From: Runella rosea
Lineage (GTDB): Bacteria; Bacteroidota; Bacteroidia; Cytophagales; Spirosomataceae
Length of the DNA stretch: 64,000 nt
Reading direction: 5' to 3'
Assembly: GCF_003325355.1 (NCBI RefSeq)
Contig: NZ_CP030850.1
Location: forward strand, 4,767,501-4,831,500
Shown: in pieces, positions 15,932-43,143 of the stretch
Position numbering within the stretch: the first letter of the stretch is position 1
How the letters are laid out: every line of letters starts with the position of its first letter
Position numbers and translations under genes: made by a program
Notes under the pieces: generated by a model
Databases searched by the model: none
Seen by the model: the letters and a program-made list of their open reading frames with translations, nothing else
Told to the model about the DNA's origin: nothing

Positions 15932-15955
15932 GCAAACGTTATCGGTAACGTTGCC
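15932..15955 (-). promoter_or_regulatory. LacI-type operator, site 1 (kdgF operon)
   Basis: This is an imperfect 24-bp palindrome with two AACGTT arms around a central CG. The minus strand carries the shared flank TTTGCATAAAAA pointing to kdgF. The same motif recurs at 39375-39398 and 43120-43143. A minus-strand TTG at 15935-15933 is followed after 18 bp by AATCATTG (15914-15907), a poor -7 box at the same distance as in the other sites. It may also affect the divergent AEC gene. Confidence 0.8.
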
Positions 15956-16099
15956 GAATTGTACTTAACAAAAAATAGATTGTAAAGAATCAAGAATAAG
16001 CCCTGGGTTGAACGAGTTTATAGTGAGAAAAGTGATTCTGAAAAAATGACAAAAAATTATACTTTTCAAAGTTTTAGGAAAGACTAATTATCACTTTAT

Positions 16100-16107
16100 T
16101 ACTTTTG
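16100..16107 (+). promoter_or_regulatory. Candidate -7 box for the AEC transporter
   Basis: TACTTTTG matches TAnnTTTG and lies 37 bp upstream of the ATG at 16145. No strong -33 TTG was found. Confidence 0.45.
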
Positions 16108-16144
16108 TACTTCCAAAGTAGAAGAATCTTCCCATCCCGTTCAA

Positions 16145-17065
16145 ATGAATCAAACCAACAGTATATTCTTAATCACCCTCGGCATTGCGACGATGGGCTT
16201 TTTGATTAAAAAATTTGATTTTGTAACCGAGCAGGATGGCAAAGCTATTTCAAAATTTTTGATGCACACCACTTTTCCCGCGCTGATGATTGTCAGTATG
16301 CTTCGCATCAAATTTGAACCTACGCTTTTTCTTATTCCGTTGATTTGCATTGCCTTGGGGGTTGTTATGACTTTGGTGGGATGGGTTTGGTTTAAAGATT
16401 ATCCCAACCGGCTGCGCGGTGTGCTGACCATGTCGTGTGGTGGGCTGAACGTGGGGCTTTTTGCGTTTCCTATCATTGAGGGTATTTGGGGGCGCGAAGG
16501 ACTGGTGTACGTGGCGATGTTTGACATCGGCAACACCATCATCACCTTCGGATTGGTTTATTCGGTAGGTAGTTATTTTGCGGTAAAGGGCGAAGGAAGG
16601 GTGAATTATGGAAGAGTGTTGAAAAAAGTCATTCAATTGCCGCCGTTGCAGGCGATGTTCATTGGATTGACTATCAATGCCTTAAAGATAGAATTGCCAG
16701 TGGTTGCTTATGATTTTTTGGATGTACTGGCCAAAGCCAATAAGCCGCTTGTGTTGCTGCTCATGGGGATTTACATGAGTTTTTCGTTGGAGCGAAGTCA
16801 GGTGTGGGCAGTGGTGAAGGTCCTGACGATTCGTTATGCCTGCGGTTTTATCGCGATTTTGCTTTTGTACGTATTGATTCCCGAGCCTACCCTTGCGCGT
16901 AATGTGCTGTTGGTCTGTGTTATACTCCCGATTGGGATGACCATTCTTCCCTTTGCCGACGAGCTTAATTACGACTCGCGTATTGCGGGTGTGTTGGTGA
17001 ATATCTCGCTGTTAATCAGCTTTTTGCTGATGTGGGGCTTGGTGGTTGGATTAAAATTGGCGTAA
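16145..17065 (+). CDS. AEC-family membrane transporter
   Basis: A 306-residue polytopic inner-membrane protein with about ten hydrophobic helices in two halves. The pattern KFLMHTTFPALMIVSMLRI near residue 36, GLNVGLFAFPIIEG near 95 and NKPLVLLLMGIYMSF in the second half fits the auxin efflux carrier (AEC/malonate-type) family. Members move carboxylates or other organic anions. The substrate is unknown here. Transcription diverges from the kdgF operon with operator site 1 in between, so a uronate-related anion is possible, but this is inference. It converges on the radical SAM gene. Confidence 0.88.
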   Translation: MNQTNSIFLITLGIATMGFLIKKFDFVTEQDGKAISKFLMHTTFPALMIVSMLRIKFEPTLFLIPLICIALGVVMTLVGWVWFKDYPNRLRGVLTMSCGGLNVGLFAFPIIEGIWGREGLVYVAMFDIGNTIITFGLVYSVGSYFAVKGEGRVNYGRVLKKVIQLPPLQAMFIGLTINALKIELPVVAYDFLDVLAKANKPLVLLLMGIYMSFSLERSQVWAVVKVLTIRYACGFIAILLLYVLIPEPTLARNVLLVCVILPIGMTILPFADELNYDSRIAGVLVNISLLISFLLMWGLVVGLKLA

Positions 17066-17106
17066 GGGACAGAAGTCAGGAGTGAGTAGCGAGGAGTGAG
17101 AACGAA

Positions 17107-19400: not shown

Positions 19401-21080
19401 CTACCATTCGCCCATTAGCGCACCAGATACGTTCCATGCGCTGAAGCTACCGCCTTCGGGGAGGCCCTGTGGTATGTGGACTTGGAGGGTATGCTTGCCA
19501 GCGGGTAGGTTGCCCAATTCTATCCAAATTGGGTTGGTGACCGTGCCTGGGCACCAGTTGGAGCGACTCAGATCAGAAGAGGAGAGCCCGTTGTTGAAAT
19601 TGCCCGAAGCAGGATTGACCAGCCGGTAGCTGCCGCAGTCGGCGCGCCAAGGCGTGATGGTAAAAATCTGTCGGCCGTCTACGGAGATTGTATTGGCTTT
19701 GGGTACAAATTCGTCGCCGTTGCCCCAGCCACCGTGGCCAGTTGTAATGTAGCGGAGTTTTAGGTTTTTGGCCCCTTCGGGTACATCGAAGGTCACTTGT
19801 AAGCCTTTTTCGTTGTTGAACATTGTTCCGTATTCCTGTCCCGCCATTTCCATGACGTTAGTGGTGTTAAAAAGCGGCACGATTCGGGATTGCTGCTTAG
19901 CGGTGGGGCGTTCGTTGGGGTGAACAGAAAAATTGAGACTTACTTTATGGCCGCCTTTGTCGTAATTACCGATAAAAACCGCAACCCACACTTCCTGGCC
20001 GTTGTAGGCCGGCAGCAAGTCGCTGATGTCTTGGCGGTAATAAGTGGAATCAGCCCAAGTTTTGTTTTTGAGTTGTAAATAATTGTATTGACGCACGCCA
20101 AAAGGCGTAAAAAACCGCATCAATTCCAATACAGGCAGATAATCAGGCGTTTGTACAACGCCTTGATACTGTTTACCATTGCCGTTTTCGTAAATGGGTA
20201 ATTCCTTTACCGATTTTTGCAGGGCGTCCAAAAACGATACTTTACGTTGGGTTGGAATCATAAACACCGAGCCTGTGCGGTCGTAGGCGTCGCCGTTGGA
20301 GTACTGCGAAAGTTCCAGAAAGACATTTGAGGCGGCCCCAACCGAGGGGAATTTTACTTTTTTGGCAATCACAGTACCGTGGGCAAACCGAACCACTTCG
20401 TTTGCGGCATGAACCGAATCCGAAAAATTGATGATTTGATGACTAAAAACGGGTAGCTGAATAAATCGACTTTTCCAGAGTTCATCTTTGTACGTGAGGG
20501 CATCTACCCGCTGTGGATGGGGTTGCGGAAGTTGGTTTTTGGCCGCCCAAGGGGTGTTTTTTTCAATCTTCACGGCTTCGGTTTCACTGTTGCCGTTGCG
20601 CACCATTTTCAAAACCAACCCTAAATTTTGCCCCAATGCCGAAGGCGCGCCTTTTATTTTTAGCTCTTCGGTGTACCAAAGGTCGATGCGGTTGGAGTTG
20701 ACAACGGTAGTGGCTTTTTTGCAGGTGTACCCCAAAATTACTTGAGTATCAGAGAGTAATTCAATTTTTTGCTCTGCCAATGCTTTGCTGTCCTGCGTCA
20801 TGAGGGTTTTGCCGTTGGCGAAAAATGCAATCTGGTACAGACTGTTGTCGGTTCGGTCTACAAAGCTGATTTCAAAAGGAGGTTTAGTCTCGCCTTTGAT
20901 GGTTTTTTCTGACGAGACGCTCGTCCCAGAGGCCGATGCTAATACAATAATCGGGTCTTGATTGGGGGGTACTTTCCCGTTGTTTTTTCTTAGATACGTA
21001 ATCTGCCAAACGTCGTTGGTTTGGGCATGGCTTTCGTAGAAACACAACAGTAAGAGGATGAATATCGGGAATGATTTCAT
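19401..21080 (-). CDS. PNGase F-like glycoprotein amidase with extra N-terminal domain
   Basis: A 559-residue exported protein (signal peptide ending near ESHAQ). Residues about 20-185 resemble the GLPGLI-type domain (VILGYTCKKATT, IDLWYTEEL). Residues about 200-559 match the two-lobed PNGase F fold: TTGHGGWGNGDEF, WRADCGSYRLVNPASGN, LSSSDLSRSNWCPGT and LGNLPAGKHTLQVHIPQG are near-verbatim PNGase F segments. PNGase F hydrolyses the GlcNAc-Asn amide bond, releasing whole N-glycans. It is the last gene of a minus-strand cluster with GH18, glycosylasparaginase, GH29 and GH125, which supports an N-glycan role. The N-terminal domain may correspond to the extra domain of PNGase F-II-type enzymes; this is inference. 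Confidence 0.9.
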   Translation of the reverse strand: MKSFPIFILLLLCFYESHAQTNDVWQITYLRKNNGKVPPNQDPIIVLASASGTSVSSEKTIKGETKPPFEISFVDRTDNSLYQIAFFANGKTLMTQDSKALAEQKIELLSDTQVILGYTCKKATTVVNSNRIDLWYTEELKIKGAPSALGQNLGLVLKMVRNGNSETEAVKIEKNTPWAAKNQLPQPHPQRVDALTYKDELWKSRFIQLPVFSHQIINFSDSVHAANEVVRFAHGTVIAKKVKFPSVGAASNVFLELSQYSNGDAYDRTGSVFMIPTQRKVSFLDALQKSVKELPIYENGNGKQYQGVVQTPDYLPVLELMRFFTPFGVRQYNYLQLKNKTWADSTYYRQDISDLLPAYNGQEVWVAVFIGNYDKGGHKVSLNFSVHPNERPTAKQQSRIVPLFNTTNVMEMAGQEYGTMFNNEKGLQVTFDVPEGAKNLKLRYITTGHGGWGNGDEFVPKANTISVDGRQIFTITPWRADCGSYRLVNPASGNFNNGLSSSDLSRSNWCPGTVTNPIWIELGNLPAGKHTLQVHIPQGLPEGGSFSAWNVSGALMGEW

Positions 21081-21129
21081 AGTTTATGGGTTTTTTAAAC
21101 CACAGAGAGACGGAGAGACACAGAGTAAA

Positions 21130-22092
21130 CTATTGAGCGCCGCGTTTAATGGCTTTTAAAAGAGAATATTCGTCGTTGGTGTCGCAGGAAATTTCCCAAA
21201 TCATGACGCCACCGCAACCGCGTTCTTTGGCCATGCGGGTTTTTTGTTCGATAGTCAACGTGCCGTTGTAGAAAGCTCCTTTCCAATAATCGTCCAACGG
21301 ACTAGCGCCGTCTTTGAGCAGGGATTTGTAATCGGGTCCGTAGTTCCCCATTCCTTTTTTAGAATAAAAAGGCAAGCCTAAAAGGGTTTTGTGGACGGGG
21401 ATTTGCCGCTCTTTAGTCCAATAATCTAAACTTTTGATGGCTAACGAATAAGGCGAATGGGCTTTGATGTAGCTCGGGCCGTAATCGTCGTCGTAGGCCA
21501 TGAGATTGATCCAGTCCATTTTGTCCAAGGCTTCCTTTTTCATACCGTAGCCTTTTTTGCCGTAGGAAATCACCGCAGCAGTCAGTTTTTTGCCTTTTAG
21601 ATGCAGAGAATCACCTAATTCATTCACCAACGCTACGTAATCATCGGCCGAGCGGCTGTCTTCGTCGGGGTATTCCCAGTCCAAATCCACGCCGTCGACG
21701 TTATAGGTGCGTACGAATTTCATTACATTTTTTACGAAAGTACGTCGTCCTTCGGGGCGTTCTGCCATTTTGTGAAAGCGCGTATCATCGCCGCCGCCAT
21801 CACCAATGCCCCAGCCACCGATGGAAATGAACACTTGTTTCTTGTTTTTATGCACAAAACTGACCAACTTTTTCAGCGGTTCTGGGTCTCGTAGTGGCTC
21901 CAGCGTATCGCCTGTTTTGGCGGGAATGGCAAAAGCAAAATTGATGTGTGTCAGTAAGTCAATCGGGATTTGTTCGGCGGGAATGGTAGGAACGTAATAG
22001 CCCACTACTTTAAATTCTTTGGACTTGGTTTGAGCAAAAGAATTGAGAATTGTCAACAGAAAGACCGCAACGTAAGCAGCATTTTTTTTCAT
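21130..22092 (-). CDS. GH18 chitinase or endo-beta-N-acetylglucosaminidase
   Basis: A 320-residue exported single-domain GH18 enzyme (signal peptide ending near NSFAQ). The catalytic DGVDLDWEYP motif at residues 133-142 has E140 as proton donor, and KKQVFISIGGWG is the second family motif. GH18 enzymes cut beta-1,4 bonds between GlcNAc units, in chitin or in the chitobiose core of N-glycans. The neighbouring PNGase F-like, fucosidase and mannosidase genes make the N-glycan core the more likely target, but chitin cannot be excluded. There is no carbohydrate-binding domain. It is 22 bp downstream of the double SGNH gene. Confidence 0.92.
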   Translation of the reverse strand: MKKNAAYVAVFLLTILNSFAQTKSKEFKVVGYYVPTIPAEQIPIDLLTHINFAFAIPAKTGDTLEPLRDPEPLKKLVSFVHKNKKQVFISIGGWGIGDGGGDDTRFHKMAERPEGRRTFVKNVMKFVRTYNVDGVDLDWEYPDEDSRSADDYVALVNELGDSLHLKGKKLTAAVISYGKKGYGMKKEALDKMDWINLMAYDDDYGPSYIKAHSPYSLAIKSLDYWTKERQIPVHKTLLGLPFYSKKGMGNYGPDYKSLLKDGASPLDDYWKGAFYNGTLTIEQKTRMAKERGCGGVMIWEISCDTNDEYSLLKAIKRGAQ

Positions 22093-22114
22093 AATGGAAT
22101 GGTTTGTTGAAGGG

Positions 22115-23884
22115 TTAATTCGCTTTTAAAATGGATTGTAATTCTTTACCTAAAAGTTCGTAACCAGCGGCGTTGGGATGCAGGCCGTCGGAAAACATCT
22201 TTTCGTCAATTTTGCCAGTTTTTAGTAATAGTGGTTTGCCAATATCGGCGTAACCAACGCCGATAGATTTGGTCAATGCCTGAATACCTTGGTTCAGCGT
22301 AATGACGCGGCTTTCCTGCTCACGACGCGGATAAATGCCCAACAGCGTGATTTTAGCTTTGGGTTGTTGGTTTTTAATGGCCTGCACCAAGAGTTTTAGG
22401 CCTTGAATGATTTCGTCGTCGGTGTTAAGGTGGAGGTTATTGGTACCGATGTTAATGATTATTTTCTCGGGCGAAATTCCGTCTAGTTCGTCGTGATACA
22501 CACGCCAGAGCACATTTTCAACCCTGTCCCAGCCAAAACCGAAATTGCGGGTCTGAAATGGTTCGAGGTACTTTTGCCAAGCTTCAGCCCCTTTGATGCG
22601 ATTATTGAGGGGTTTGCCACCCCAATTGTGGGTGATTGAATTGCCAATCATCAACACCTTGGTCGGCTCAGTCTGATTGAGTTTCAAGATTGCGTTGTGT
22701 CTTTCTTCCCAATTGTAGCTGCCCGGCTCTCGGTTGTGCCGTACGGGAATTTGGGTCTTGAGCGTGCCTACGGGTTGTTGCAAGATTTCACGTAACTTTT
22801 TTTCGTAAGCATCGGCATAACGCATCATTCCCAAATCGTTGGGGTGTGTACCATCTACCATACCTTCGTGGTCAATCCCAATCTCAGAGATGGGCAAGAG
22901 GTAAATGTTGGATACTTTTTCGTTCGTCAGTTGAGCAAAGGCTTCGCGTAAATCTTGATTGGCATCTTCAAAAAGCGGCTGACGATGCGCCATGAGATAG
23001 CTGTCGGTGTAGCCGTCGTGCTCGGTCAGTAAAATAGGCGTATTGGGGTGTTTGGTTCGCAAGGTTTTGACCGATTCGATGATTCGTTTCTGTAACTCTT
23101 TACGTTCAACAATGGGGTAAATCAGATTCGGTAAACAATCCAACACAAACACCCTAGCGTCGATTTCGTTGATGAGGTCAATAACCTCCTTTTCCAAACG
23201 CCCGTTCCCTGAAAAACCCAGATTAATCACCGTACGGTCGAGTTTGCGAGCTAGAATATTAGTCCAAGCCATGCCTGGGCGCGAGGCACACGCACCCTGC
23301 GCAATGGAAGTGCCATAGACCACAATGGGTTTTTCCAGCCGTTGCGGCAAAACGGTAAAAACACTGCCAGCTGGTACGCCAATCTCTAGGTCTCTGATGC
23401 TATTATACAACGGAAGAAACAGGCGGTATTCACGGCCTAATTTATGATAATTGTCGTTGGGTTTGAGTTTGTCAAAATTGTATTGAACCGTATCTTTAAA
23501 ACTGTACTTCCCGTTTGCCAAATGCCAATTCCCGTCGCTATCAAGGCCATACAAGTCTACCCCGCTGACGCCCGTAGCGGGCATGTGCGGCATGGCAGCG
23601 TTGCCAGTCACTTTATAGCGAACAATGATCTGCGGGGCATCGCTCACAAACCGAATCGAAAGCCCTGCGCTGTTGCGCGAAAGATTCCAAACGGCTTTCC
23701 GAACGATATTTTCGGCCCTTGGTGGAAAGCGCTGAATGGTATCGCGCATTTCACCCGACCACGCCTGTCCATCAATGGCGGCAAACGGACTGTCGGAGGG
23801 TTTCCACCATTTAAGCTCAATGGGGGCCTGGGCCAAAACGATGGTAGAAAAAAGGCAAAGGAGAAATGTGTGCAGTTGTTTCAT
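22115..23884 (-). CDS. Double-domain SGNH/GDSL hydrolase
   Basis: A 589-residue exported protein with two esterase units. An N-terminal beta domain of the type found in Bacteroidota SGNH proteins (TGVSGVDLYGLDSDG near 100-115) leads into SGNH unit 1, with VVYGTSIAQG as block I and DGTHPNDLG as the catalytic Asp/His block. Unit 2 begins near residue 385 with VLMIGNSITHNWGG, GTNN as block III, and SDGLHPNAAGYELL. Such enzymes remove O-acetyl or other ester groups from sugars. ATG 23884 is chosen because it starts a signal peptide (MKQLHTFLLCLFSTIVLAQ); the longer frame to 23959 overlaps the upstream gene. The substrate is unknown; a glycan O-acetyl group is likely from context. Confidence 0.88.
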   Translation of the reverse strand: MKQLHTFLLCLFSTIVLAQAPIELKWWKPSDSPFAAIDGQAWSGEMRDTIQRFPPRAENIVRKAVWNLSRNSAGLSIRFVSDAPQIIVRYKVTGNAAMPHMPATGVSGVDLYGLDSDGNWHLANGKYSFKDTVQYNFDKLKPNDNYHKLGREYRLFLPLYNSIRDLEIGVPAGSVFTVLPQRLEKPIVVYGTSIAQGACASRPGMAWTNILARKLDRTVINLGFSGNGRLEKEVIDLINEIDARVFVLDCLPNLIYPIVERKELQKRIIESVKTLRTKHPNTPILLTEHDGYTDSYLMAHRQPLFEDANQDLREAFAQLTNEKVSNIYLLPISEIGIDHEGMVDGTHPNDLGMMRYADAYEKKLREILQQPVGTLKTQIPVRHNREPGSYNWEERHNAILKLNQTEPTKVLMIGNSITHNWGGKPLNNRIKGAEAWQKYLEPFQTRNFGFGWDRVENVLWRVYHDELDGISPEKIIINIGTNNLHLNTDDEIIQGLKLLVQAIKNQQPKAKITLLGIYPRREQESRVITLNQGIQALTKSIGVGYADIGKPLLLKTGKIDEKMFSDGLHPNAAGYELLGKELQSILKAN

Positions 23885-23940
23885 TGAAATAACGTAAAGG
23901 TCACCATGAAAGGGTCTATTCGTTGCATTAGAGGCATAAA

Positions 23941-26064
23941 TCACTCTACTACCAGCCACGTATAGCCTTCGGCAGGAATAGTAACGGTGATTTCGGCGTT
24001 GTAATTTCTGTCCAATATATACTTTGCCGCTTTGCCTTCTTGCGTGCGAATCATGGCTTCTTTGCTCAAACCAGTGTAGTAGAGCGGCAGTTTTATTTTT
24101 CGGGTAATGGCCTCTTTTAGGGGATTATACACCATCATCAGTCCCTTTTCTTTCAACGCTGGATTTACGTGCATGATGCCGTCCCAGTCACGGCCATCAG
24201 GGCGGCGTAGGTGGAGAATGTCAGAATTGAGGATGTCGCGGTATTTTTTATACCAGTCGATGGTTTCTTTTACTACCTGTTTGGTGGCGTCGGTATCGTA
24301 CAGGCGAGGGCCTCGGTAGCAGGCCTGCACGCCCGCGCCATAGTACTGCATCATGAGTTGTTTGTAGTCGGTCAGGTGCTCACTCAGCGGCTCCAAGACG
24401 GCGTCAGCGGTGCCGCCTTGATACTTGGTAAGAGGTACAAATCCCCAACTCATCGACGGTGTTTTTTCCCACAACCCGTCGTAAATATTCTGTCGATTGA
24501 GGATTTTTTGCTGTGCCCGCGACAACGAAAAGTTGACCTCACGATAACCTAGTCCAATTTTGTGCGAACCGTCCAGAAAGTACCAATCCGGTGCATTGAT
24601 GTATATGCCACGGCCGTTGAGCCACTGGTACAATTCTTTTTGCATCGACATTTGTACCCACTGCGAGTCGTCCAGTCCTTTGTGGCCTGGGTGTTTGGTC
24701 GAAGCGCACACGTCGCCAGGGTAGGGACCGTCGTGTTCGAGTAAATCAAAGCCTGTTTCAGCGATAAATTTTTTCAGACTTTTTATGTAATTGATGCCCC
24801 ATTTACTCGCCAAACAGGGCGCATGGCCAAAGAAAGCGGCTTTATCGGGCAAGCCCGTAACGGGGTCAATGACGTCGTTTTCGTCATCAATTCGGCGGCT
24901 GCTAAATAGTGAATATCCGCCTAGTTTAATGCCTTTGCTGTGGGCATAATCGGCTAAGGATTTGAATTTCTGAATGTTGGCGTCGGAGGCGTCTTCCATG
25001 TTAAGGCCGCTGCCAAAACTCAAAATGACCATTTCGTAGCCCGTTTCGGCACATTGGTCTATCACGCTTTTGACCTTTTCTGGCTCTGTGCTGATTAGGT
25101 GCATAAAAATGGGATTTTGAGTTGTCCACGGAAACAGCGTGCGGTACATTTTGCGGCGCGCTAAACCGTTGCGTTCGCGGTCGTAGGAGTCTAACAGTAA
25201 TTCGTACGAACGAATGGAGGTGTAAGATTCTTTAGCAGCCAAATCGATGCCCACGCCCAACATCGGATACACTTCCACCACGCAGGGAGTTTCGAGGTAA
25301 TAGTTGACCTGCGAGGTATAGCTGCTGTCGATTTTCCAGTGTGTGGCTTGGTCCGACAGCTCGTAGCGCATGGCGTTGTTGTAGGCAAAATTATTTTCGA
25401 TGTAGAGCTTATGCGGCTTTTTCATCTTTTCGGGCTTGCCCACCACCGCCGATTCTTCTTCGGGCGTAGCCAATATTTCGTTTACTACTTGATTAATTTT
25501 TAGCTCGTTTCCTGACTTGTTTTCAATCGTTACCCATTTTTCTAATACGGGTATTCCGTCAAATATTTCATAATGCACGGCTACCTCGACACCTTTCAGC
25601 TCGGCGTTGTTCGAGGCAAAGTACAAGATTACGCCTTTGCCCGTCGGAAGGTTTTTGTTGGCCGTCCAGGTGGTAGGCTTCCACTCAAAATGGGTTTTTA
25701 TAGCGACGATTTCGTGACGAATAAACTGAAAATCAGTCGAATTGCTATTTAATTGGTTTGTCCATTCTTCCAACAAATACGCATGTTCTTTTTGGCCGTA
25801 CAGACCACCCACATTGTAGGTTTTGCCGTTGAGCGTTACGCGGGCTTCGGGCCGCACCGACCGCACAAACTGCTCGTTGGTCGTCAGGTTTTTGTAACTG
25901 ACGGTAGCGGCATTGGGTGAAATTTGAATTTGGCGGGCAATGAGTCCATTGCTGATTTCAATGATTTGGCCATTTTTCAGGAGCTTCACTTCGCTCTTTT
26001 GGGCAATAGGCGTAATGAGCCAGTCCTGGGCACGGGCAGTGAGGGCGAGGAGGATTAGCAGCAT
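23941..26064 (-). CDS. Putative clan GH-D glycosidase (alpha-galactosidase-like)
   Basis: About 707 residues with a short hydrophobic export signal (MLLILLALTARAQ). The N-terminal beta-sandwich starts at ISNGLIARQIQISPNA, a pattern of GH36/GH27-type alpha-galactosidases. The barrel follows with YEMVILSFGSGLNMED, SKGIKLGGYSLF and FDLLEHDGPYPGD, where an Asp would be the nucleophile, and ends in a small C-terminal beta domain. I am not certain of the CAZy family. The frame remains open to 26418 through an 84-bp repeat array, but the extension is repeat-encoded, so ATG 26064 is preferred. The signal lacks the usual N-terminal lysines, suggesting the original 5' end was disturbed by the insertion. 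Confidence 0.72.
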   Translation of the reverse strand: MLLILLALTARAQDWLITPIAQKSEVKLLKNGQIIEISNGLIARQIQISPNAATVSYKNLTTNEQFVRSVRPEARVTLNGKTYNVGGLYGQKEHAYLLEEWTNQLNSNSTDFQFIRHEIVAIKTHFEWKPTTWTANKNLPTGKGVILYFASNNAELKGVEVAVHYEIFDGIPVLEKWVTIENKSGNELKINQVVNEILATPEEESAVVGKPEKMKKPHKLYIENNFAYNNAMRYELSDQATHWKIDSSYTSQVNYYLETPCVVEVYPMLGVGIDLAAKESYTSIRSYELLLDSYDRERNGLARRKMYRTLFPWTTQNPIFMHLISTEPEKVKSVIDQCAETGYEMVILSFGSGLNMEDASDANIQKFKSLADYAHSKGIKLGGYSLFSSRRIDDENDVIDPVTGLPDKAAFFGHAPCLASKWGINYIKSLKKFIAETGFDLLEHDGPYPGDVCASTKHPGHKGLDDSQWVQMSMQKELYQWLNGRGIYINAPDWYFLDGSHKIGLGYREVNFSLSRAQQKILNRQNIYDGLWEKTPSMSWGFVPLTKYQGGTADAVLEPLSEHLTDYKQLMMQYYGAGVQACYRGPRLYDTDATKQVVKETIDWYKKYRDILNSDILHLRRPDGRDWDGIMHVNPALKEKGLMMVYNPLKEAITRKIKLPLYYTGLSKEAMIRTQEGKAAKYILDRNYNAEITVTIPAEGYTWLVVE

Positions 26065-26101
26065 ACTTACTATTCTATGCCTTGCCCTGCTACTCGGTGC
26101 T

Positions 26102-26365
26102 CTACGGGTAACACCCGTAGTTACTGGTATTGAACCCCGTTGGGGTTCTAAAAGCCCGAAGGGCTTGCTAAGTGGTGTCGAGTAGTAATCCCTGTTACCC
26201 GTAGTTACTGGTATTGAACCCTGTTGGGGGTTTAAAAGCCCGAAGGGCTTGCTAAGTGGTGTCGAGTAGTAATCACTGTTACCCGTAGTTACTGGTATTG
26301 AACCCCGTTGGGGTTCTAAAAGCCCGAAGGACTTGAATGTGAGTGGCGGTGAGTAGCACTCACCG
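26102..26365. repeat. 84-bp tandem repeat array with hairpins (REP-like)
   Basis: Two full units (26113-26196 and 26197-26280) and a third that diverges after about 26335 repeat with an exact 84-bp period. Each unit holds two hairpins: AACCCC/GGGGTT with a 3-base loop, and AAGCCC-GAA-GGGCTT. Unit 2 has changes on both sides of the first stem that keep it paired. The array is bounded by two similar 8-bp-stem, 3-base-loop hairpins at 26102-26120 and 26347-26365. It lies immediately downstream of the transposase gene. As 84 is a multiple of 3, the minus-strand frame stays open through it. Confidence 0.93.
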
Positions 26366-26377
26366 ATGCCGACAAAG

Positions 26378-26824
26378 CTAAAGCAGGTATTTTTCATCAA
26401 ATTCGATGTTATTCTCAATCAGAAGCCGTTTGTATTCATCATAAAACGTCTCTTTTTTGTGATGTTCTTTTTGCTTTTTGACGTAATTAATGATTTTATC
26501 CTTCTCACGGATGGAGTAAGTGAATGCTCCGTAGCCTTCCTGCCAAGCTTCAAAATCAGGAAAAAAACCGCTTTGCTTCATCCAAATACTGCTTGCCACT
26601 TTGATGTCTTTCACAAAATCAGCTAAGGCTATCGAAGGATGTAAATCGCAAAAAATGTGAATATGGTCTTCGACACCGTTGATGCGATATAATTTACATT
26701 TGTTGTTTTTGACAACACCCCAAATGTACTTATACATTTCTTCACAATGTGCCTCGTTAATAGTAGGGCGACGATATTTTGTACCGAAAACAATTTGATA
26801 GTAAATCTGCCGATAGCTGCTCAT
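26378..26824 (-). mobile_element. IS200/IS605-type Y1 transposase (TnpA, possibly REP-associated)
   Basis: A 148-residue Y1 HUH transposase: the metal-binding HIH pair is in GVEDHIHIFCDLHPS, and the nucleophilic tyrosine is in IINYVKKQKEHH. Length fits IS200 TnpA, and no TnpB is present. The adjacent hairpin repeats suggest a REP-associated (RAYT-like) role. It starts 2 bp after the stop of the glycosylasparaginase gene and lies in the same orientation, so it is probably read from the host operon. No flanking element end is visible on that side. The gene is intact. Confidence 0.88.
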
Positions 26825-26826
26825 AG

Positions 26827-27873
26827 CTACTTTTTCGGAAAAATACTCTTCGCCATAAATACCTTACCACCGTCGTCGGCGTGCGTGACGGAGTAATTGA
26901 AGCCGTGGTGAATAGAGTACGCACCGTATTCGCCTTGCTTATTGATGGCGATGAATCCCACCTGAAAATCTTTGGCCTTGGTCGGGTTGATTTTTACAAT
27001 GCGCTCCACGGCAATTTTGCAGGCTTCTTCGGGACTTTTACCCATGCGCATCATCTCCACAATGAGGTGCGTTCCCGCTACGCGAATGACTTCTTCGCCT
27101 TGGCCAGAACCCGTGGCGGCACCCACTTCATTGTCAACGTACAATCCTGAACCGATGATAGGGGAGTCGCCCACGCGGCCGTGCATTTTGAAGGCCATAC
27201 CGCTGGTTGTACACGCCCCCGAAAGATTGCCTGCAGCATCCATGGCGATGGTTCCCATGGTGTCGTGGTTGGGTGTGCCGTCGTCAAAAAAGTTGGGGGC
27301 AAATGGGCCGCTTTTGGTTTTTTGACCTTTGCTTTGTTGCTGTTCGATGTTGATAACAGGCTTGTATTCAGATTTTTTCAGCCATTCTTTGTAAGTTTTC
27401 TCGGCATCGGCCGAAAGCTTATCGGGTTCTTTCTGAAAACCGCTTTCCAAGGCAAATTGCAGGGCGCCATCGCCTACGAGCTGGACGTGCGGAGTGTTTT
27501 CCATCACTTTTCGCGCTACCGAAATCGGGTGTTTGATGTGCTGGAGTGCCATTACTGAGCCGCAGTTGAATTTATCATCCATGATGCAGGCATCCAAGGT
27601 AACTTTTCCTTCCCGGTCGGGATTGCCGCCCAAACCTACGCAGCAATTGATGGTATCTTCGATGGAGCGCGCGCCAGCTTCCACGGCGTCCAGTGCCCGT
27701 CCGTTGGGTTGTTTCAATACTTTCCAAGCCACGGCGTTGACGGGCAAGCCACTGTCCCATGTAGAAACAACGATGGGCTTTGTCACGGCGATTTTCTTAG
27801 AAAATGCCTTGCTGAATGAAAGCAGCGGCAGGCTAAGCGCCGACCAACGGATGAAGTGTCTTCTTGATTGCAT
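26827..27873 (-). CDS. N4-(beta-N-acetylglucosaminyl)-L-asparaginase
   Basis: A 348-residue N-terminal nucleophile hydrolase that cleaves GlcNAc-Asn. The self-processing site is HDTMGTIAMD with T205 as the new N-terminal nucleophile after cleavage at D204-T205. Upstream, CVGLGGNPDREGKVTLDACIMD, and downstream, GRVGDSPIIGSGLYVDNEVGAATGSGQGE (as two adjoining blocks), are family signatures. The N-terminus SRRHFIRWS followed by a hydrophobic stretch is a twin-arginine (Tat) signal, so the folded enzyme is probably exported. It acts after protein and glycan trimming, in line with the PNGase F-like, GH18, GH29 and GH125 neighbours. It lies 47 bp downstream of GH29. Confidence 0.95.
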   Translation of the reverse strand: MQSRRHFIRWSALSLPLLSFSKAFSKKIAVTKPIVVSTWDSGLPVNAVAWKVLKQPNGRALDAVEAGARSIEDTINCCVGLGGNPDREGKVTLDACIMDDKFNCGSVMALQHIKHPISVARKVMENTPHVQLVGDGALQFALESGFQKEPDKLSADAEKTYKEWLKKSEYKPVINIEQQQSKGQKTKSGPFAPNFFDDGTPNHDTMGTIAMDAAGNLSGACTTSGMAFKMHGRVGDSPIIGSGLYVDNEVGAATGSGQGEEVIRVAGTHLIVEMMRMGKSPEEACKIAVERIVKINPTKAKDFQVGFIAINKQGEYGAYSIHHGFNYSVTHADDGGKVFMAKSIFPKK

Positions 27874-27920
27874 GTGTGTTAGTTTGTAGGTTGGGTAGTG
27901 TTCGTAAGAAAGTCTATACT

Positions 27921-31155: not shown

Positions 31156-32523
31156 TTACCAGATAAAAGTGGCGACGGTTTTTCCGCTGAGCGTGGGGGT
31201 GATTTGACGGTTTTTTGCTCGAATATTGAACGTCATTGGCTTGTCGCTTTCGTTCAGTATAATCATTACCGTATGGCCGTCGGGCGTTTTGAAAGCCACA
31301 TTAGGTAGACTCATGGTCACGTTGGAGGCAATGCGGACGGAACCTGGTCGCACAAATTTAGCCGCGTGGGCAATGATATAATAGGCAGGGTTTCGGGTGA
31401 TGGTTTGTCCGATTGTAACGGCACCCAAGCAGGCCGTGCAACCGCCGTCGGTGTGCGGGCCTTGGTTGGGGTCGGCGGCCAAATTCCATTCTAAAACGGT
31501 TTTGCTCCAATTGCGTGGTGCGCCAATGAGCAGATTTTTGACGTGCCATTGCAAATCTCCCCCGAAATTGGCGGGTGCGCCGAGCCACTGTTCGGTAAAA
31601 TAAAGGTTTTTATCGGGGTGTGCCTCGTGAACATCGCGCAGTGCATCAATGCCGCCGCCGTAGAGGTGAAAAGCCGAGCCGTCGATGTACTTGCGCGCAT
31701 CGGGGTCGTTGAGGATACTAATGGGATAGTCGGGGCGGTCGGCGTTGTGGTCGTAGATGATGATTTTTGTGCTGAGTTTGGCGGTTTTGAAGGCAGGTCC
31801 GAGGCTCTTTTTGATGAAGTCTGCCTGCTCATCCTGCGGCATCAGCAAGCTGGGATTATTGTCGGGGTTCAAGGGTTCATTTTGTACCGTAAGGGCGTCA
31901 ATTTGGATGCCCTGTTTTTTCATTTCCTGCACGTATTTCACCAAATAACGCGCATACGCATCGTAAAACTCAGGTTTGAGGCTTCCCCCTTTAGAATTAT
32001 TGTTGGTTTTCATCCACGACGGCGGTGTCCAGGGTGAACCCAAAATTTTGAGGTTAGGGTTAATCGCCAAAATTTGTTTCAAGACGGGAATAAGGTCTTT
32101 TTGTTCTTCCGCCAACGAAAATCGGCTCAGCTTGGGGTCGGTTTGGCCCGCAGAAAGGTCGTTGTACGTAAAAACATGGTCGCTCAAATCAGATGCCCCG
32201 ACGCTGATGCGCAGGTAACTGACTCCGATGTTGTTGGCATCGGTGGCAAATAATTCTTTCAGCAACGCTGCTTTTTCCGAGGGTTTTAATCCATTGATGA
32301 GGGTTGCGCTTCCGCCCGTGAGTGTATAGCCGAACCCGTCCATGGATTGAAACCGCTTGGTATCGTCAACATAAATGCTTGGTAAAGTGCCCGTCATTGG
32401 GCCAAACGCTAACTTTTCGGTTTGTTTTTGGAACAACACCGATTGGTCGGCTTTGGTGAGCCATAGCTCGGCTTGTTGGGCGTAGGAGGTAAGACTGAAA
32501 AGGAAGAAGAGGAGGCGCTTCAT
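31156..32523 (-). CDS. GH30 beta-glycosidase
   Basis: A 455-residue exported GH30 enzyme (signal peptide ending near TSYAQ). The start of the barrel is QSMDGFGYTLTGGSA; the acid/base is E216 in LTVQNEP and the nucleophile E311 in LYFTEQW. A C-terminal beta-sandwich completes the usual GH30 layout. Related enzymes cut beta-1,6-glucan, glucosylceramide or beta-xylosidic bonds; the specificity cannot be read here. It shares direction with the N-glycan cluster but is 250 bp upstream, so it may be transcribed separately. Confidence 0.92.
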   Translation of the reverse strand: MKRLLFFLFSLTSYAQQAELWLTKADQSVLFQKQTEKLAFGPMTGTLPSIYVDDTKRFQSMDGFGYTLTGGSATLINGLKPSEKAALLKELFATDANNIGVSYLRISVGASDLSDHVFTYNDLSAGQTDPKLSRFSLAEEQKDLIPVLKQILAINPNLKILGSPWTPPSWMKTNNNSKGGSLKPEFYDAYARYLVKYVQEMKKQGIQIDALTVQNEPLNPDNNPSLLMPQDEQADFIKKSLGPAFKTAKLSTKIIIYDHNADRPDYPISILNDPDARKYIDGSAFHLYGGGIDALRDVHEAHPDKNLYFTEQWLGAPANFGGDLQWHVKNLLIGAPRNWSKTVLEWNLAADPNQGPHTDGGCTACLGAVTIGQTITRNPAYYIIAHAAKFVRPGSVRIASNVTMSLPNVAFKTPDGHTVMIILNESDKPMTFNIRAKNRQITPTLSGKTVATFIW

Positions 32524-36908: not shown

Positions 36909-36947
36909 GACGTTGGTGTTTTTTCACCAACGTCAATACTTTTTTAC
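36909..36947. terminator. Intrinsic terminator between convergent genes
   Basis: A perfect 10-bp stem, GACGTTGGTG paired with CACCAACGTC, has a T6 loop and is followed by a T-run on the plus strand. It ends the small membrane protein gene and slightly overlaps the 3' end of the convergent GH28 gene. Confidence 0.88.
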
Positions 36948-39289
36948 TTCTTACTCACCACCTTCCCCTTCACTCCAACACCCAATTCCACCTCTTTTCT
37001 CGCTTTGGTCACATCTGTATTCAGCAAACGAACGCCTTCGGAACGAGTACCCATCACCTTCAATAGTACCTCTTTGTCGGACCCGTACGTGATGCCGTCC
37101 AGGACTACATTTTTGCTGTTTTGCACCTGCATCACGGTTTTGTCTTTGGTCAAAAGAGTTACGTTTTTGAGGTTTATATTTTCACCTTCCACGCACACCA
37201 AGCCTTTGTTAGCTTCGATGACGGCGTTTTCAATGTTGATATTTTTGATGCTCATTTCGGGCAGGCCGCGTACCAAAATGGCGGTTTCGGCTCCTTGACA
37301 AATGATGTTTTTGATGTAGAAATTTTTGAACTGTGGCGTCCCTTCGTTCAATGGCTCGGCTTTGATGGTCGGCAATTCGTTGGATTCGCCTTCTTGTGGT
37401 ATGGGGTCCTTGGCGGCGTAATACATGTCAAAAAGAATGGCTTCGCCGGGGATTTCGGTCATGTTGATGTCGGTTACGTAGATGTCTTCCACCACGCCGC
37501 CACGTCCACGGGCGGTTTTGAAGCGAAGGCCTACATCTGAACCCATGAAAGTGCAATTGGACACAAATAGATTTCGGACACCGCCCGACATTTCGGAGCC
37601 AATCACAAAGCCGCCGTGGGCGTGGTACACTTTGCAATCTTTGATGATAAAGTTTTCAGTCGGGACACCGCGTTTGCGGCCTTGCTCATCGCGGCCCGAT
37701 TTGATGGTGATGCCGTCGTCGCCTGTATCAAAGGTACAACCTTCCACGATGCCGTTGCGGCAAGATTCGAGGTCGAGCGCGTCACTGTTTTGGGCGTACC
37801 AGTGGTTTTTGACGGTCACGTTGCGGATACTGACGTGGTCGCAGAGTAGCGGGTGCATGGTCCAGGCAGGAGAGTTTTGGAACGTGACGCCTTCCAGCAA
37901 TACGTTCTTACAACGCGTTAGGCTAATCATGTTGGGCCGTAAAAAATCTTTGTAAGACTCCAATTCGGCGGGCGTTGGGTGAATACCGTTCAGAATTCGT
38001 CCTGCATTGGGCAAATTATTGCCTTTTTTGGACTTTTCTGATGGGTACCATAAGTCGTTTTTATCGCTCACCACGCCACCTGATTTTAGGAGTGCCGCCC
38101 ATTGTGAATTGGTTTGTTTTTCGCGTTTGATAGCGCGCCACACCTCGCCGCCACCGTCGAGCACCCCCTCACCCGTGAGGGCAATGTTGGTCAAATCTAC
38201 GCCCCAAATCGGTGCCTGACAGCGGTATGATTCTTGCCCTTCCCAAGTAGTGACCACAATCGGATAATCGTCGTGATTGCGGCTAAATTGTAATAAAGCA
38301 CTTTTGGCAATGTGCAGATTGACGTTGTTTTTCAATACAATCGGTCCTGTGAGCCACAATCCTGCGGGTACCAATACCGTGCCGCCGCCCGCAGCATGGC
38401 AGGCTTCGATGGCTTGGTTGATGGCTTTGGTATTCACCGTCAGACCATCGGCCTTAGCGCCGTAGCGGGCAATGTTGAAGGTGTCTTTGCGAAAAACGGG
38501 CGTGTAATAATTGGGGAGCTCGTAGGTGTATTTATTCGTAAATTCTGATTTTTTGACAAAGCTTTTCAAGTCAATTGGCAATTCCATGATGCCTTCCACG
38601 ACCAAGCTCGCCATGACCGACGCGCCGTAACGGGAAAAATGGGTATTGTCTTCGATGCCTTTGGGAAATTTGGGATAAATACCTCCACCGTAGTGCATAA
38701 ACAGCACTTTTGAGCCTTCTACGCCGTGCTTTTCAATCACGGCTTGACTTTTGGCGTGCAAATCTATCATCGGCACTTTCAGTTCTTTGGCTACATCTTT
38801 TACCACTTGTGGGTATTCGCCGTGCTGGTCCACAAACGTCCCTTTTTCGTCAAACTTGCGCCGCATAACGGGTGTAATCAACAGCGGGTTGCCGCCTTTG
38901 GCGCGGGTTTCGTTTACAAACCGAATCAGGTTTTGGCGGTACAACGTTTGCGCGGGAGCCGAGCGTGTGCTATCGACTACTTTTTGGTCATTATGGCCAA
39001 ATTGAATAAAAACCCAATCGCCTTTTTTGACTTGTGACACCACTTTTTGCCAGCGCCCTTCGGTGATAAAACTCTTGGTGCTGCGACCGTTGACGGCGTG
39101 ATTTTGAATCTGCACGGCGTCGGTATTGAAGTATTCGGGCAGCACCATACCCCAGCCTGTTTCGGGCGCATCGGCGGGCAGTTTGGGAGCTAGCGTTGAA
39201 TCACCGCATAGGAAAATGGTAAGTTTTTCATCCACTGGACGAAAGGCAGTCAAGGCCAGTAAAAAGAAAATCCGAAGAAATGATTTCAT
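36944..39289 (-). CDS. Rhamnogalacturonan acetylesterase-GH28 polygalacturonase fusion
   Basis: A 780-residue exported protein. Residues about 22-245 are an SGNH rhamnogalacturonan acetylesterase (CE12-like): FLCGDSTLA with S31, FGHND at 97-101, and DNTHFSRYGA with D214/H217. Residues about 265-780 are a GH28 beta-helix: FNIARYGAKADG start, NSDALD (501-506), DTGDDGITIKSG (D524, D525), HGG (558-560) and RFKTARGRGG. It would remove acetyl groups and cut galacturonan in one polypeptide. ATG 39289 starts the signal peptide (MKSFLRIFFLLAL); the frame to 39352 is an upstream extension. Operator site 2 lies 86 bp upstream. Confidence 0.94.
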   Translation of the reverse strand: MKSFLRIFFLLALTAFRPVDEKLTIFLCGDSTLAPKLPADAPETGWGMVLPEYFNTDAVQIQNHAVNGRSTKSFITEGRWQKVVSQVKKGDWVFIQFGHNDQKVVDSTRSAPAQTLYRQNLIRFVNETRAKGGNPLLITPVMRRKFDEKGTFVDQHGEYPQVVKDVAKELKVPMIDLHAKSQAVIEKHGVEGSKVLFMHYGGGIYPKFPKGIEDNTHFSRYGASVMASLVVEGIMELPIDLKSFVKKSEFTNKYTYELPNYYTPVFRKDTFNIARYGAKADGLTVNTKAINQAIEACHAAGGGTVLVPAGLWLTGPIVLKNNVNLHIAKSALLQFSRNHDDYPIVVTTWEGQESYRCQAPIWGVDLTNIALTGEGVLDGGGEVWRAIKREKQTNSQWAALLKSGGVVSDKNDLWYPSEKSKKGNNLPNAGRILNGIHPTPAELESYKDFLRPNMISLTRCKNVLLEGVTFQNSPAWTMHPLLCDHVSIRNVTVKNHWYAQNSDALDLESCRNGIVEGCTFDTGDDGITIKSGRDEQGRKRGVPTENFIIKDCKVYHAHGGFVIGSEMSGGVRNLFVSNCTFMGSDVGLRFKTARGRGGVVEDIYVTDINMTEIPGEAILFDMYYAAKDPIPQEGESNELPTIKAEPLNEGTPQFKNFYIKNIICQGAETAILVRGLPEMSIKNINIENAVIEANKGLVCVEGENINLKNVTLLTKDKTVMQVQNSKNVVLDGITYGSDKEVLLKVMGTRSEGVRLLNTDVTKARKEVELGVGVKGKVVSKK

Positions 39290-39374
39290 GGAGTTGGTTT
39301 GATAGAACGAGGAATCCTGTACGAGATTACTGGTTAAATTATAACAAAACAACTCATTTATTGCATTTTTTTAT

Positions 39375-39398
39375 GCAATCGTTGTCGGCAACGTTGCC
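39375..39398 (-). promoter_or_regulatory. LacI-type operator, site 2 (acetylesterase-GH28 gene)
   Basis: The 24-bp motif, oriented toward the GH28 fusion gene, contains AACGATTGC next to CATAAAAAAA on the minus strand. It differs from site 3 at one base within the 24. A minus-strand TTG at 39378-39376 is followed after 18 bp by ATGAGTTG (39357-39350), a poor -7 match. Confidence 0.8.
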
Positions 39399-40702: not shown

Positions 40703-40750
40703 AGGGGCGAAATGTTTACCGAAGCGACCCTAAAATTACGTAATCTATTT

Positions 40751-41950
40751 TTACGAACGTTGCTTTCTGACTTGTTTTAACCAATCTGCTACTCCCTTTC
40801 GAATCTGTTTGGCCATTTTTTTGCGGTACCCGTCTTCCAAAATAAGCGCCTCGTCGTCGGGGTGGCTTAAAAATAATCCTTCTACCAGCACATTGGGGTA
40901 TTCGGTAGGGCTGTTGAGCGCAAAATTAAAACGGCCGACATTGCCGTATTCGGTCAATCCCATATCCAGCAATCGCTTCAATATGGCTTGACTCAACGGC
41001 CTGTACCCAAGATGTTTATAGTACGTACTTGTCCCTTTGGTTTTGGTGGTATCGCCCGCCGCATTGTTGTGAATACTGATAAGCAGGTCGGGTTTGAGTT
41101 TACGAAGGCTCAGTACGCGGTCTGTATTATTGATCAGTGAGTCATTGTTGCGGGTCATCAGCACCGTTGCTCCCTTGCGTTCAAGTTCTTTCTGTAAATG
41201 TCGGGCAATGCTGAGATTAAAGTCTTTTTCGTATTGTTTTGATCGCAGCCCCCGAGCGCCTAAGTTGCTACCGCCGTGGCCAGCGTCTACCGCGATGGTC
41301 AGGTCACGAAGGCGTAATTTTTCGGGTTGATGCGTAACGCGTATTACCAGCCGACGGCCTTCGTAGCCGATGGCGTAACCCCAATGTTGTGCATGGCGCA
41401 AGGAAATGATAACCCTGAATTGGTCATCGGCAACCTGTTCATAATCAATGTTTTTAATCTCTTTAGCCGTGCGAAGTTGGGTAATCCAGTTGGTATTGGC
41501 GGTGGCACCAAAAATGTCCACCACAATTCGCGCGGGATTCATCTCCTGACGGCTGCGGTAGGGCAGTCGCTCGGGCAATGGGATAGACACATAATCCTGA
41601 CGATTGTCGCCAGATACGCGCCAAGAAGCCGTTAAATACTGTACCGAAGGAAGCCGTACGTTGGTATCGCGTTTGGTGAGGGTTTGCGGAATCCACGCCG
41701 AGAGTTGGTTGGTCAAACGTACCCGATAAAGATCTTTGTATTTAGCGGTGACTTTGAGCAATACCAGCGAATCGACATACCCCATTTTTGCGCCTCCGAG
41801 ACGGTCTTCACCCACTCCATAATTGAGATAGGCCAATGGGCCTTTGGTACGGACAAAAAAGGTGGAATCGGGCTGGAATGTTGTGAGGGTGTCGCGGGTT
41901 TGGGCCTGTAAAAAAAAAGGAAAACAGGCAATGCACAAAAAACGAAGCAT
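40751..41950 (-). CDS. N-acetylmuramoyl-L-alanine amidase (Amidase_3)
   Basis: A 399-residue exported enzyme that cuts the amide bond between MurNAc and L-Ala in peptidoglycan. The catalytic domain lies in about residues 215-399: AVDAGHGGSNLGARG (zinc His), a KQYEKDFNLSIA Glu, LLISIHNNAAGD (zinc His) and NVLVEGLFLSHPDDEA (catalytic Glu). The N-terminal about 200 residues form an SH3-like plus AMIN-like beta region. ATG 41950 starts a signal peptide (MLRFLCIACFPFFLQAQ); the earlier in-frame start at 41989 overlaps lacI. It follows lacI by 10 bp, so it may be co-transcribed with the regulator. Confidence 0.93.
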   Translation of the reverse strand: MLRFLCIACFPFFLQAQTRDTLTTFQPDSTFFVRTKGPLAYLNYGVGEDRLGGAKMGYVDSLVLLKVTAKYKDLYRVRLTNQLSAWIPQTLTKRDTNVRLPSVQYLTASWRVSGDNRQDYVSIPLPERLPYRSRQEMNPARIVVDIFGATANTNWITQLRTAKEIKNIDYEQVADDQFRVIISLRHAQHWGYAIGYEGRRLVIRVTHQPEKLRLRDLTIAVDAGHGGSNLGARGLRSKQYEKDFNLSIARHLQKELERKGATVLMTRNNDSLINNTDRVLSLRKLKPDLLISIHNNAAGDTTKTKGTSTYYKHLGYRPLSQAILKRLLDMGLTEYGNVGRFNFALNSPTEYPNVLVEGLFLSHPDDEALILEDGYRKKMAKQIRKGVADWLKQVRKQRS

Positions 41951-41960
41951 TGGTCTAAAA

Positions 41961-42992
41961 TTACGTGGTGGCTTTGATAGAAGAATCACGGATGACCAAA
42001 TGCGTGTCTAATTTTTTCGTTTCGAAACGAATCGTCGCTTTCGGGCGCTCAATGAGGTCGATTAGGAATTCGGTGGCCAATTGTCCCATCTCGTAAGCGG
42101 GCTGACGAACGGCACTAAGGGCAGGATTGAGCAAATGAGCCGTAACCAAGTTGGTAAATCCAACGATGGCGATGTCTTCTGGAATACGCAGCCCTTCTCT
42201 CCGAATCAATGACATACAAGTGGTAGTAAGGCGGTCGCCAGCCGTAAAAATGGCATCGGGGCGGTTGGGATGGTTAATCAACTCCATAACTGCTTGCTCA
42301 ACTTCTTCCAAAATCATTCCTCCATGACTACAATACTTGATGTACGAGTCTTCAATGGGGATGTCGTGATTTTGGAGGGCTTTTTTATAGCCTTCCAACC
42401 GTTCATACGTAATGGAAAGCCAAGAAGGGCTGGTCAAGTGGGCAATGCGACGAAAACCCTGTTTAATCAAGTGCTCGGTGGCTTCGTAGGTTCCGGCAAA
42501 GTTATCGGCGATTACTTTGTGCGTAATGTAATCCTGCGGTACGCGGTCAAAAAATACAATAGGTAATCCTTTGGTTTGTAGCTCTTTAAAGTGCTCTAGG
42601 TCGTTACTTTCTCCCGAAAGAGAGACCAAAAGGCCATCTACCCTGCGTTGAGCCAAATATTGCGTGCTGACCAGCTCACGCTCGTAAGATTCGTGATTTT
42701 GAGAAATCACCACATGGTACCCGCGATTGTAAGCGATGGATTCCATGCCGTTAATTGCCTGCGAAAAGAAGTTGTTGGCAATCTCAGGAATAATTACGCC
42801 AATCGAACGGCTACGGTTTTCTTTCAAACTCAGGGCAATGGGATTGGGGCGGTAGTTCATCCGCTCGGCATATTCCATGACCAGTCGCTTGGTTTCAGGG
42901 TTAATTTCGTAGCTCCCCCGCAACGCCCTCGATACTGTAGAAGTTGAAAGATTGAGCGCCTTAGCTATATCTTTTATGGTAATTATCTCCAC
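41961..42992 (-). CDS. LacI-family transcriptional regulator of the pectin genes
   Basis: A 343-residue LacI/GalR regulator. The helix-turn-helix is at residues 5-25 (TIKDIAKALNLSTSTVSRAL), followed by the hinge helix YRPNPIALSLKENRS and a periplasmic-binding-protein-like domain (about 62-335). No ATG is available: the start is GTG 42992. It is divergent from kduD with a 294-bp gap that holds operator site 3, which suggests that it controls kduD and perhaps itself. Two more copies of that operator are at 15932 and 39375. The inducer is likely KDG or a related pectin intermediate, by analogy; the sequence does not show it. Confidence 0.93.
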   Translation of the reverse strand: MEIITIKDIAKALNLSTSTVSRALRGSYEINPETKRLVMEYAERMNYRPNPIALSLKENRSRSIGVIIPEIANNFFSQAINGMESIAYNRGYHVVISQNHESYERELVSTQYLAQRRVDGLLVSLSGESNDLEHFKELQTKGLPIVFFDRVPQDYITHKVIADNFAGTYEATEHLIKQGFRRIAHLTSPSWLSITYERLEGYKKALQNHDIPIEDSYIKYCSHGGMILEEVEQAVMELINHPNRPDAIFTAGDRLTTTCMSLIRREGLRIPEDIAIVGFTNLVTAHLLNPALSAVRQPAYEMGQLATEFLIDLIERPKATIRFETKKLDTHLVIRDSSIKATT

Positions 42993-43119
42993 AGTCTTAA
43001 TTATTGGTTTTGTACAATTTTTTTACTCTGGGTAAAGGATTCTCTTTTGAGAAGTGAAGATACGTCTTTTTGGTAAACAACTCAAAAAAAAACAAGATAA
43101 ACTCTATTTCTGACATTTT

Positions 43120-43143
43120 GGGAACGTTGCCGACAACGATTGC
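43120..43143 (+). promoter_or_regulatory. LacI-type operator, site 3 (kduD-susCD operon)
   Basis: This 24-bp palindrome, AACGTT arm plus AACGAT arm around CGAC, is followed by CATAAAAAAA pointing to kduD. It matches sites 1 and 2 after reverse complement. The 3' end of the motif contains TTG (43140-43142), 18 bp before the AATATTTG box, so a bound repressor would cover the -33 position. It lies 128 bp from the lacI start codon. Confidence 0.85.

Follow-up and report, generated by a model that had tools for sequence, protein, structure and literature searches.

A shared operator at a fixed distance upstream of pectin promoters in Runella rosea suggests a LacI-type activator

Do the pectin genes of Runella rosea answer to one regulator, and would such a regulator switch them on or off? 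We addressed this in a stretch of 64,000 nucleotides of the genome (contig NZ_CP030850.1, positions 4,767,501 to 4,831,500), referred to as the window. A sequence-only reading of the window had claimed that the same palindromic operator precedes three pectin transcription units, 28 kb apart, and that the LacI-family protein encoded beside one of them probably controls all three. We call this protein PecR, a name coined in this analysis. Our results suggest that its operator marks five promoters in the genome, and PecR probably activates them from a position near -69. The sites, their spacing and conservation, the co-occurrence and the gene content were read from the sequence. From these we infer binding by PecR, the sign of control, the ligand, a contact with the RNA polymerase alpha subunit and the start sites, which were placed from the -7 box.

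The three 24-bp palindromes lie where they had been reported (15932-15955, 39375-39398 and 43120-43143), as a check of each 24-mer in the sequence confirmed. By direct reading, sites 2 and 3 differ in one base of 24 and sites 1 and 2 in three. GCATAAAAA adjoins all three, on the side of the controlled gene. We refer to the sites as S1, S2 and S3. Both in these and in the logo of related sites described below, the operator is an even palindrome with a central CG, as is typical of the LacI family. When an 18-mer was searched in the window with up to three mismatches, eight matches were found, compared to a mean of 0.65 in shuffles. Six of these are both strands of S1-S3 and two are three-mismatch matches.

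The scan was extended to the whole Runella genome of 7.16 Mb. Exact matches of the 14-mer CGTTRYCGRYAACG stand at four places: S1-S3, which are intergenic, and one within a long open frame; with one mismatch it becomes unspecific (38 places per strand vs 28 for the reversed control). The extended motif AACGTTNCCGRYAACGNTTGC also occurs exactly in four places, namely S1-S3 and C1:4693135 (S4), about 74 kb before the window. At one mismatch it is found at C1:1859005 (S5) and C1:5569796. The latter has no A-tract and lies before a lacI paralogue, opposite a GH3 gene. The independent A-tract pattern AACGNTTGCRTAAAWAAA matched only S1-S5 at 0-1 mismatches; at up to two mismatches there were 22 places vs 38 for the reversed control, and only the five closest are meaningful. 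Each promoter has one site, and no second operator was found in the own-genome scans with AACGTTNCCGRYAACGNTTGC and AACGNTTGCRTAAAWAAA.

A motif at many unrelated genes would have spoken against a dedicated regulator. The five A-tract-bearing sites instead precede the three pectin and galacturonate units, a SusCD pair and a regulator that lies next to rhamnogalacturonan genes. The regulator behind S4 is a protein with a GntR-type helix-turn-helix (HTH) and a LacI-like effector domain; its neighbours on the opposite strand are a PL11 rhamnogalacturonan lyase and two GH88-family genes. Downstream of S5 there is a second SusCD pair.

The sequence-only reading had overlooked that operator, A-tract (its CATAAAAA), -33 box and -7 box stand at fixed spacing. 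To describe this layout we used 80 places hand-picked across genera from the motif matches listed, together with 15 further regions, and counted offsets from the first A of AACGTT. Deduplication by mismatch thresholds reduced 93 sites to 74 for the logo; 67 sites were used for the spacing counts. The logo shows the operator from -4 to 21 with an outer TG/CA pair, the A-tract RTAAAWAAA at 21-29, TTG at 43-45 and TAAnnT at 66-71. The last two match the -33 (TTTG) and -7 (TAnnTTTG) boxes described for Bacteroidota promoters (PMC7366714). TTG stood at offset 43 in 40 of the 67 sites, compared to a mean of 1.7 across offsets; for TAnnnT the counts were 39 at offset 66 and eight at 67, with a mean of 2.7. 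In 41 of the 67, the TTG of the best-scoring promoter was at offset 43, and in six more at 42 or 44, while 100 shuffles gave at most six at one offset. This peak is seen before kduD, GH28, SusC, uxaB, one subgroup of GntR, arabinosidase-like and extracytoplasmic function (ECF) sigma factor genes. In Runella and Dyadobacter the -33 fit is poor at most GntR promoters; the same is true of several second-SusC promoters. Among S1-S5, the -7 box fits in all five and TTG stands at offset 43 in four, with TTTA in S4.

With the -7 octamer taken as centred at -7, the operator is centred near -69 on the predicted promoters, and transcription is predicted to start near 15875 (-), 39318 (-) and 43201 (+) for S1, S2 and S3. 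It lies upstream of the core promoter and leaves both boxes free in all five own promoters. A classical LacI repressor would have its operator overlapping or downstream of the core promoter, which is not what we see here, and the fixed spacing between site and promoter is that of a class I-type activator. We considered TTGC at the operator edge as a -33 box, which would make the operator overlap the promoter, and rejected this because the logo places both boxes further downstream.

A second set comprised the best 80 named loci listed, including Cytophagales, Chitinophagales and Sphingobacteriales, with sites oriented and selected by the A-tract alone. In 58 of these loci 62 sites qualified, and 61 of them have TAnnnT at 65-67. 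The -7 spacing was present in all 39 sites classed outside Cytophagales, compared to a shuffled mean of 3.9 and a maximum of 9; among these were counted an uncultured Cytophagales record (L219) and an unplaced set, which we separated in the count by order. With orders assigned from record titles, the -33 TTG was found in 20/24 Cytophagales, 4/22 Chitinophagales, 0/9 Sphingobacteriales and 2/7 unassigned sites. Tested for a weak or missing upstream element, Chitinophagales and Sphingobacteriales together thus have the TTG in 4/31 sites vs 20/24 in Cytophagales. To see whether these lineages use a -33 box elsewhere, TTTG-N19..21-TAnnTTTG was counted against N12..14 spacing. Four Chitinophagaceae genomes gave 150/86, 171/123, 200/125 and 165/96, a 1.4- to 1.7-fold excess. 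Use of -33 in these lineages is well supported for Chitinophagaceae and weakly for the others.

We then looked at the link between the motif and PecR. The protein has an N-terminal LacI HTH (PF00356, 47.8 bits vs a cut-off of 27) and a periplasmic-binding-protein-like effector domain (PF13377, 105.9 bits). Among the matches listed, its nearest named LacI relatives are those of R. zeae (92%) and R. limosa (90%). Among solved relatives the best scores go to CcpA (3oqo, the highest) and PurR, and this likeness is a resemblance rather than proof. Of 150 family genomes, 72 have an exact copy of the extended motif, as do 18 of 36 genera, while the reversed pattern was found in 0 of 150. The motif is present in 67 of the 78 genomes with a PecR orthologue (E <= 1e-112) vs 5 of the 72 without; Fisher P was below 2e-14 at all six orthologue thresholds tried, on genomes that are related and not independent. 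Where the best match is only at paralogue level, the motif was found in 2 of 24 genomes. When the 30 nearest loci were searched, the lacI-kduD gap of most held the operator; three (L019, L025 and L044) had none at up to two mismatches of the 14-mer. Taken together, these results support the claim of one LacI-type regulator for the three units, and the best reading is that the 24-bp palindrome is bound by PecR.

Autoregulation of lacI was rejected as the reason for the site in this gap, as the operator stays with kduD where lacI sits apart. In R. limosa (G086) about 20 kb separate lacI from kduD, and the operator is found only at kduD. Another Runella (G050) has an intact lacI without operator about 24 kb from kduD, whose operator remains and is adjoined by a lacI-like remnant of 66 codons (L086:10411-10611). 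In G138 lacI has no operator within its 4 kb locus, and the genome lacks the exact motif. We assign the operator to the divergent kduD operon and not to lacI.

The genes behind the operator in relatives were counted in 91 site readings of the fetched loci, some sites being read twice. A same-strand gene starts within 500 bp in 84 of them. Among the first four genes, 45 readings have a homologue (at least 40% identity) of a pectin or galacturonate gene of the window, 11 one of the GntR regulator, 10 one of the second SusCD pair and 25 none of these. A GntR relative stands behind the site in 13 readings, two of which this rule missed. In L105 the GntR gene is followed by an L-rhamnose isomerase-like gene (506 bits, cut-off 647) and an FGGY kinase. 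A rhamnose link is suggested by two loci, and in R. rosea the rhamnose isomerase relative sits elsewhere (C1:3529668), away from S4. Some of the 25 are annotated. They comprise an ECF sigma/FecR/SusC run, a GH43 arabinosidase-like gene, a fructose-1,6-bisphosphatase, and a GntP permease with galactarate dehydratase behind it; several more lack an explanation. The operator precedes an ECF sigma factor, a FecR anti-sigma factor and then SusC in L091, L118, L155 and L170 (the first annotated, the others recognised by gene sizes and SusC matches). It precedes fructose-1,6-bisphosphatase in L132 and L154 (L154 annotated, L132 by a similar protein start). An acyl-CoA dehydrogenase-like gene with no obvious pectin link follows it in L137 and L142 (L142 by the same gene sizes). 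In L148 no same-strand gene was found behind the operator, and there is no obvious pectin link.

How could PecR act from this position? Uronate released by pectin breakdown would load PecR, and its dimer would bind the operator centred near -69. There it may help RNA polymerase, perhaps via the alpha C-terminal domain on the A-tract, where the -33 box of the promoter is weak or missing. The predicted regulon comprises kduDI-SusCD-pectate lyase-pectinesterase, GDSL-GH28, kdgF-GH88-uxaBC-kdgK-kdgA-transporter, the GntR-type regulator and the second SusCD pair. Since these are catabolic genes, an activator would have to bind DNA in its ligand-bound form, which is how PurR behaves (PMC4052901). 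We regard an activator as the best reading because the upstream distance is constant, there is one site per promoter, and the -33 box seems dispensable in two orders. The published rule for CcpA agrees: it activates from sites upstream of -35 and represses from those that overlap the promoter, with the lev operon as an exception (PMC3463425).

Several observations weigh against this reading. The composite site was not found in 22 of the 80 named loci, where sites were selected for the A-tract, the exact motif is missing from 11 of the 78 orthologue-bearing genomes, and the best-scoring promoter lies elsewhere in about 20 of the 67 family sites. The -33/-7 pair is enriched only 1.1- to 1.3-fold in three Sphingobacteriales genomes, two of Mucilaginibacter (235/197 and 204/182) and one of Pedobacter (147/112), and only 1.12-fold in Runella (386/345) and Dyadobacter (132/118), whose pectin promoters do have -33. 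A smaller count of this spacing in the fetched loci was uninformative, and the -33 motif is reported as not found in Flavobacterium johnsoniae (PMC7366714). The main rival is that PecR represses from -69: in its ligand-free form it would block an UP element, or the alpha C-terminal contact, beside the A-tract until a pectin sugar releases it. Such a repressor would give a fixed spacing too. LacI-family proteins on sugar genes are mostly repressors that the sugar releases from DNA (PMC4052901), the A-tract position suits an UP element, and the lev operon of B. subtilis is repressed from an upstream site (PMC3463425). On the other hand, neither -33 nor -7 is covered by the operator in any of the five own promoters, one site per promoter gives two-site looping no support, and the -33-less promoters of Chitinophagales and Sphingobacteriales would stay weak even when derepressed. 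We consider repression from -69 less likely than activation.

It is improbable that another protein is the main binder of the motif and that the lacI neighbour is incidental. One candidate is the LacI paralogue at C1:5569931. It is 48% identical to PecR, and a one-mismatch site lies directly upstream of its own gene. Since T17, S18 and R22 of the recognition helix are common to both proteins, some cross-binding by the paralogue is possible. However, genomes with only a paralogue-level match rarely have the exact motif, as given above, and the paralogue sites differ in the inner bases; of five readings in this genome, none has a -33 box at offset 43 and one has a partial A-tract. Common promoter ancestry without a joint regulator could arise where SusCD and kdu promoters were copied together with their genes, and many fetched sites are orthologous. 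Equal operator and spacing are nevertheless found before unrelated genes in one genome and before many gene classes. Chance as the origin of the motif is ruled out by the genome scan counts and the empty reversed control, and we give chance or ancestry almost no weight as an explanation.

The window features are collected in the table. The open frame of the GH28 gene begins with TTG at 39352; translation more likely starts at the ATG at 39289, which is followed by the signal-peptide-like MKSFLRIFFLLAL, and S2 then lies about 86 bp upstream of the gene. The cupin protein, named KdgF in the sequence-only reading, had no NCBIfam match at E 1e-20.

Table. Operators, predicted promoters and genes of the pectin units in the window
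Feature	Position	Strand	Remark
S1 operator	15932..15952	-	before kdgF-GH88-uxaB-uxaC-kdgK-kdgA-transporter
S1 A-tract	15923..15931	-	ATAAAAATA
S1 predicted promoter	15879..15910	-	-33 ATTG 15907-15910; -7 TAAACTCA 15879-15886
S2 operator	39375..39395	-	before GDSL-esterase/GH28 gene
S2 A-tract	39366..39374	-	ATAAAAAAA
S2 predicted promoter	39322..39353	-	-33 GTTG 39350-39353; -7 TAATCTCG 39322-39329
S3 operator	43123..43143	+	before kduD-kduI-SusC-SusD-pectate lyase-pectinesterase
S3 A-tract	43144..43152	+	ATAAAAAAA
S3 predicted promoter	43165..43197	+	-33 TTTG 43165-43168; -7 TAAACTTG 43190-43197
LacI-family regulator PecR, proposed operator binder	41961..42992	-	Pfam LacI HTH and Peripla_BP_3; motif co-occurrence
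KduD-type short-chain dehydrogenase	43287..44048	+	TIGR01832 330 bits, slightly below cut-off 339
KduI	44096..44926	+	above NCBIfam cut-off
SusC-like TonB-dependent receptor	44955..48146	+	
SusD-like lipoprotein	48170..49957	+	
Pectic acid lyase	49967..51091	+	Pec_lyase; presumably PL10
Pectinesterase fused to esterase-like domain	51104..52987	+	
GDSL esterase-GH28 fusion	36944..39289	-	start set at ATG 39289
Cupin protein (KdgF)	15464..15805	-	
GH88/GH105-type unsaturated uronyl hydrolase	13520..15430	-	
UxaB, tagaturonate reductase	11938..13485	-	above NCBIfam cut-off
UxaC, uronate isomerase	10510..11919	-	
PfkB sugar kinase, probable KdgK	9364..10401	-	
KDPG/KHG aldolase	8672..9343	-	above NCBIfam cut-off
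Major facilitator superfamily transporter, probable hexuronate importer	7290..8591	-	

The galacturonate operon (window 6850-15805) has no altronate dehydratase gene uxaA. The genome holds two PF04295 genes (C1:2640937 and C7:45307), neither among the listed operator places. Between the pectin units, an apparently N-glycan-directed run (19401-32523) encodes PNGase F, GH18, a GDSL esterase, an asparaginase-like protein, GH29, GH125 and GH30, with an IS200-type transposase inside it (26378-26824). Directly after the pectin operon, on the opposite strand (52982-56375), there are an H-NOX (haem-NO-binding) gene and a PAS/histidine-kinase/receiver/Hpt hybrid (52982-55849).

LacI-family regulons for uronates are already known as predictions in Bacteroidota, namely those of KdgR, UxaR and UxuR in Bacteroides (PMC3878776, PMC4052901). 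These regulators share with PecR the family, the phylum and the galacturonate, glucuronate and 2-keto-3-deoxygluconate pathways. As described there, they control monosaccharide pathways, and KdgR is noted to have few targets in the periplasm or outside the cell. The predicted PecR regulon differs in holding outer-membrane SusCD, a lyase, esterases and GH28. The hybrid two-component systems (HTCS) and SusR of Bacteroides polysaccharide loci also control SusCD and pectinase genes (PMC3878776), whereas PecR is a cytoplasmic one-component LacI protein with one proposed operator for catabolic and outer-membrane genes. CcpA of Bacillus subtilis belongs to the same family and activates from upstream of -35 at ackA, pta and ilvB; unlike PecR, it regulates catabolite genes globally, works with a protein co-factor and is mostly a repressor (PMC3463425). 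For PecR, almost all of the marked regulon shows the upstream layout. Among class I activators, CRP has its dimer site at -61.5 or -71.5. Like the proposed PecR site, it lies upstream of the core promoter at a constant distance; PecR differs in its protein family and its Bacteroidota-type promoter, and its alpha contact is putative. We found no paper on this LacI-type pectin regulator in the open-access literature, which does not prove that none exists. The present analysis adds the fixed activator-like layout, two further targets in the own genome and the spread over three orders.

We tentatively extend this to a whole clade, at somewhat less than even confidence. LacI-family proteins in three Bacteroidota orders may be dedicated, ligand-dependent pectin activators that act at -69 by the A-tract and replace the -33 box. 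One operator would serve outer-membrane uptake and cytoplasmic catabolism, and would stand above a second-tier GntR regulator (beside rhamnogalacturonan or rhamnose genes) and, in some relatives, ECF sigma/FecR. Most known control of Bacteroidota polysaccharide loci is by hybrid two-component, SusR-type and sigma/anti-sigma systems. If the activator reading is true, a LacI-type activator would be an unusual inversion of textbook LacI logic, and homogalacturonan sensing would be tied to a rhamnogalacturonan-associated regulator. Its rigid, readable promoter code would then make pectin regulons predictable from sequence in environmental Bacteroidota.

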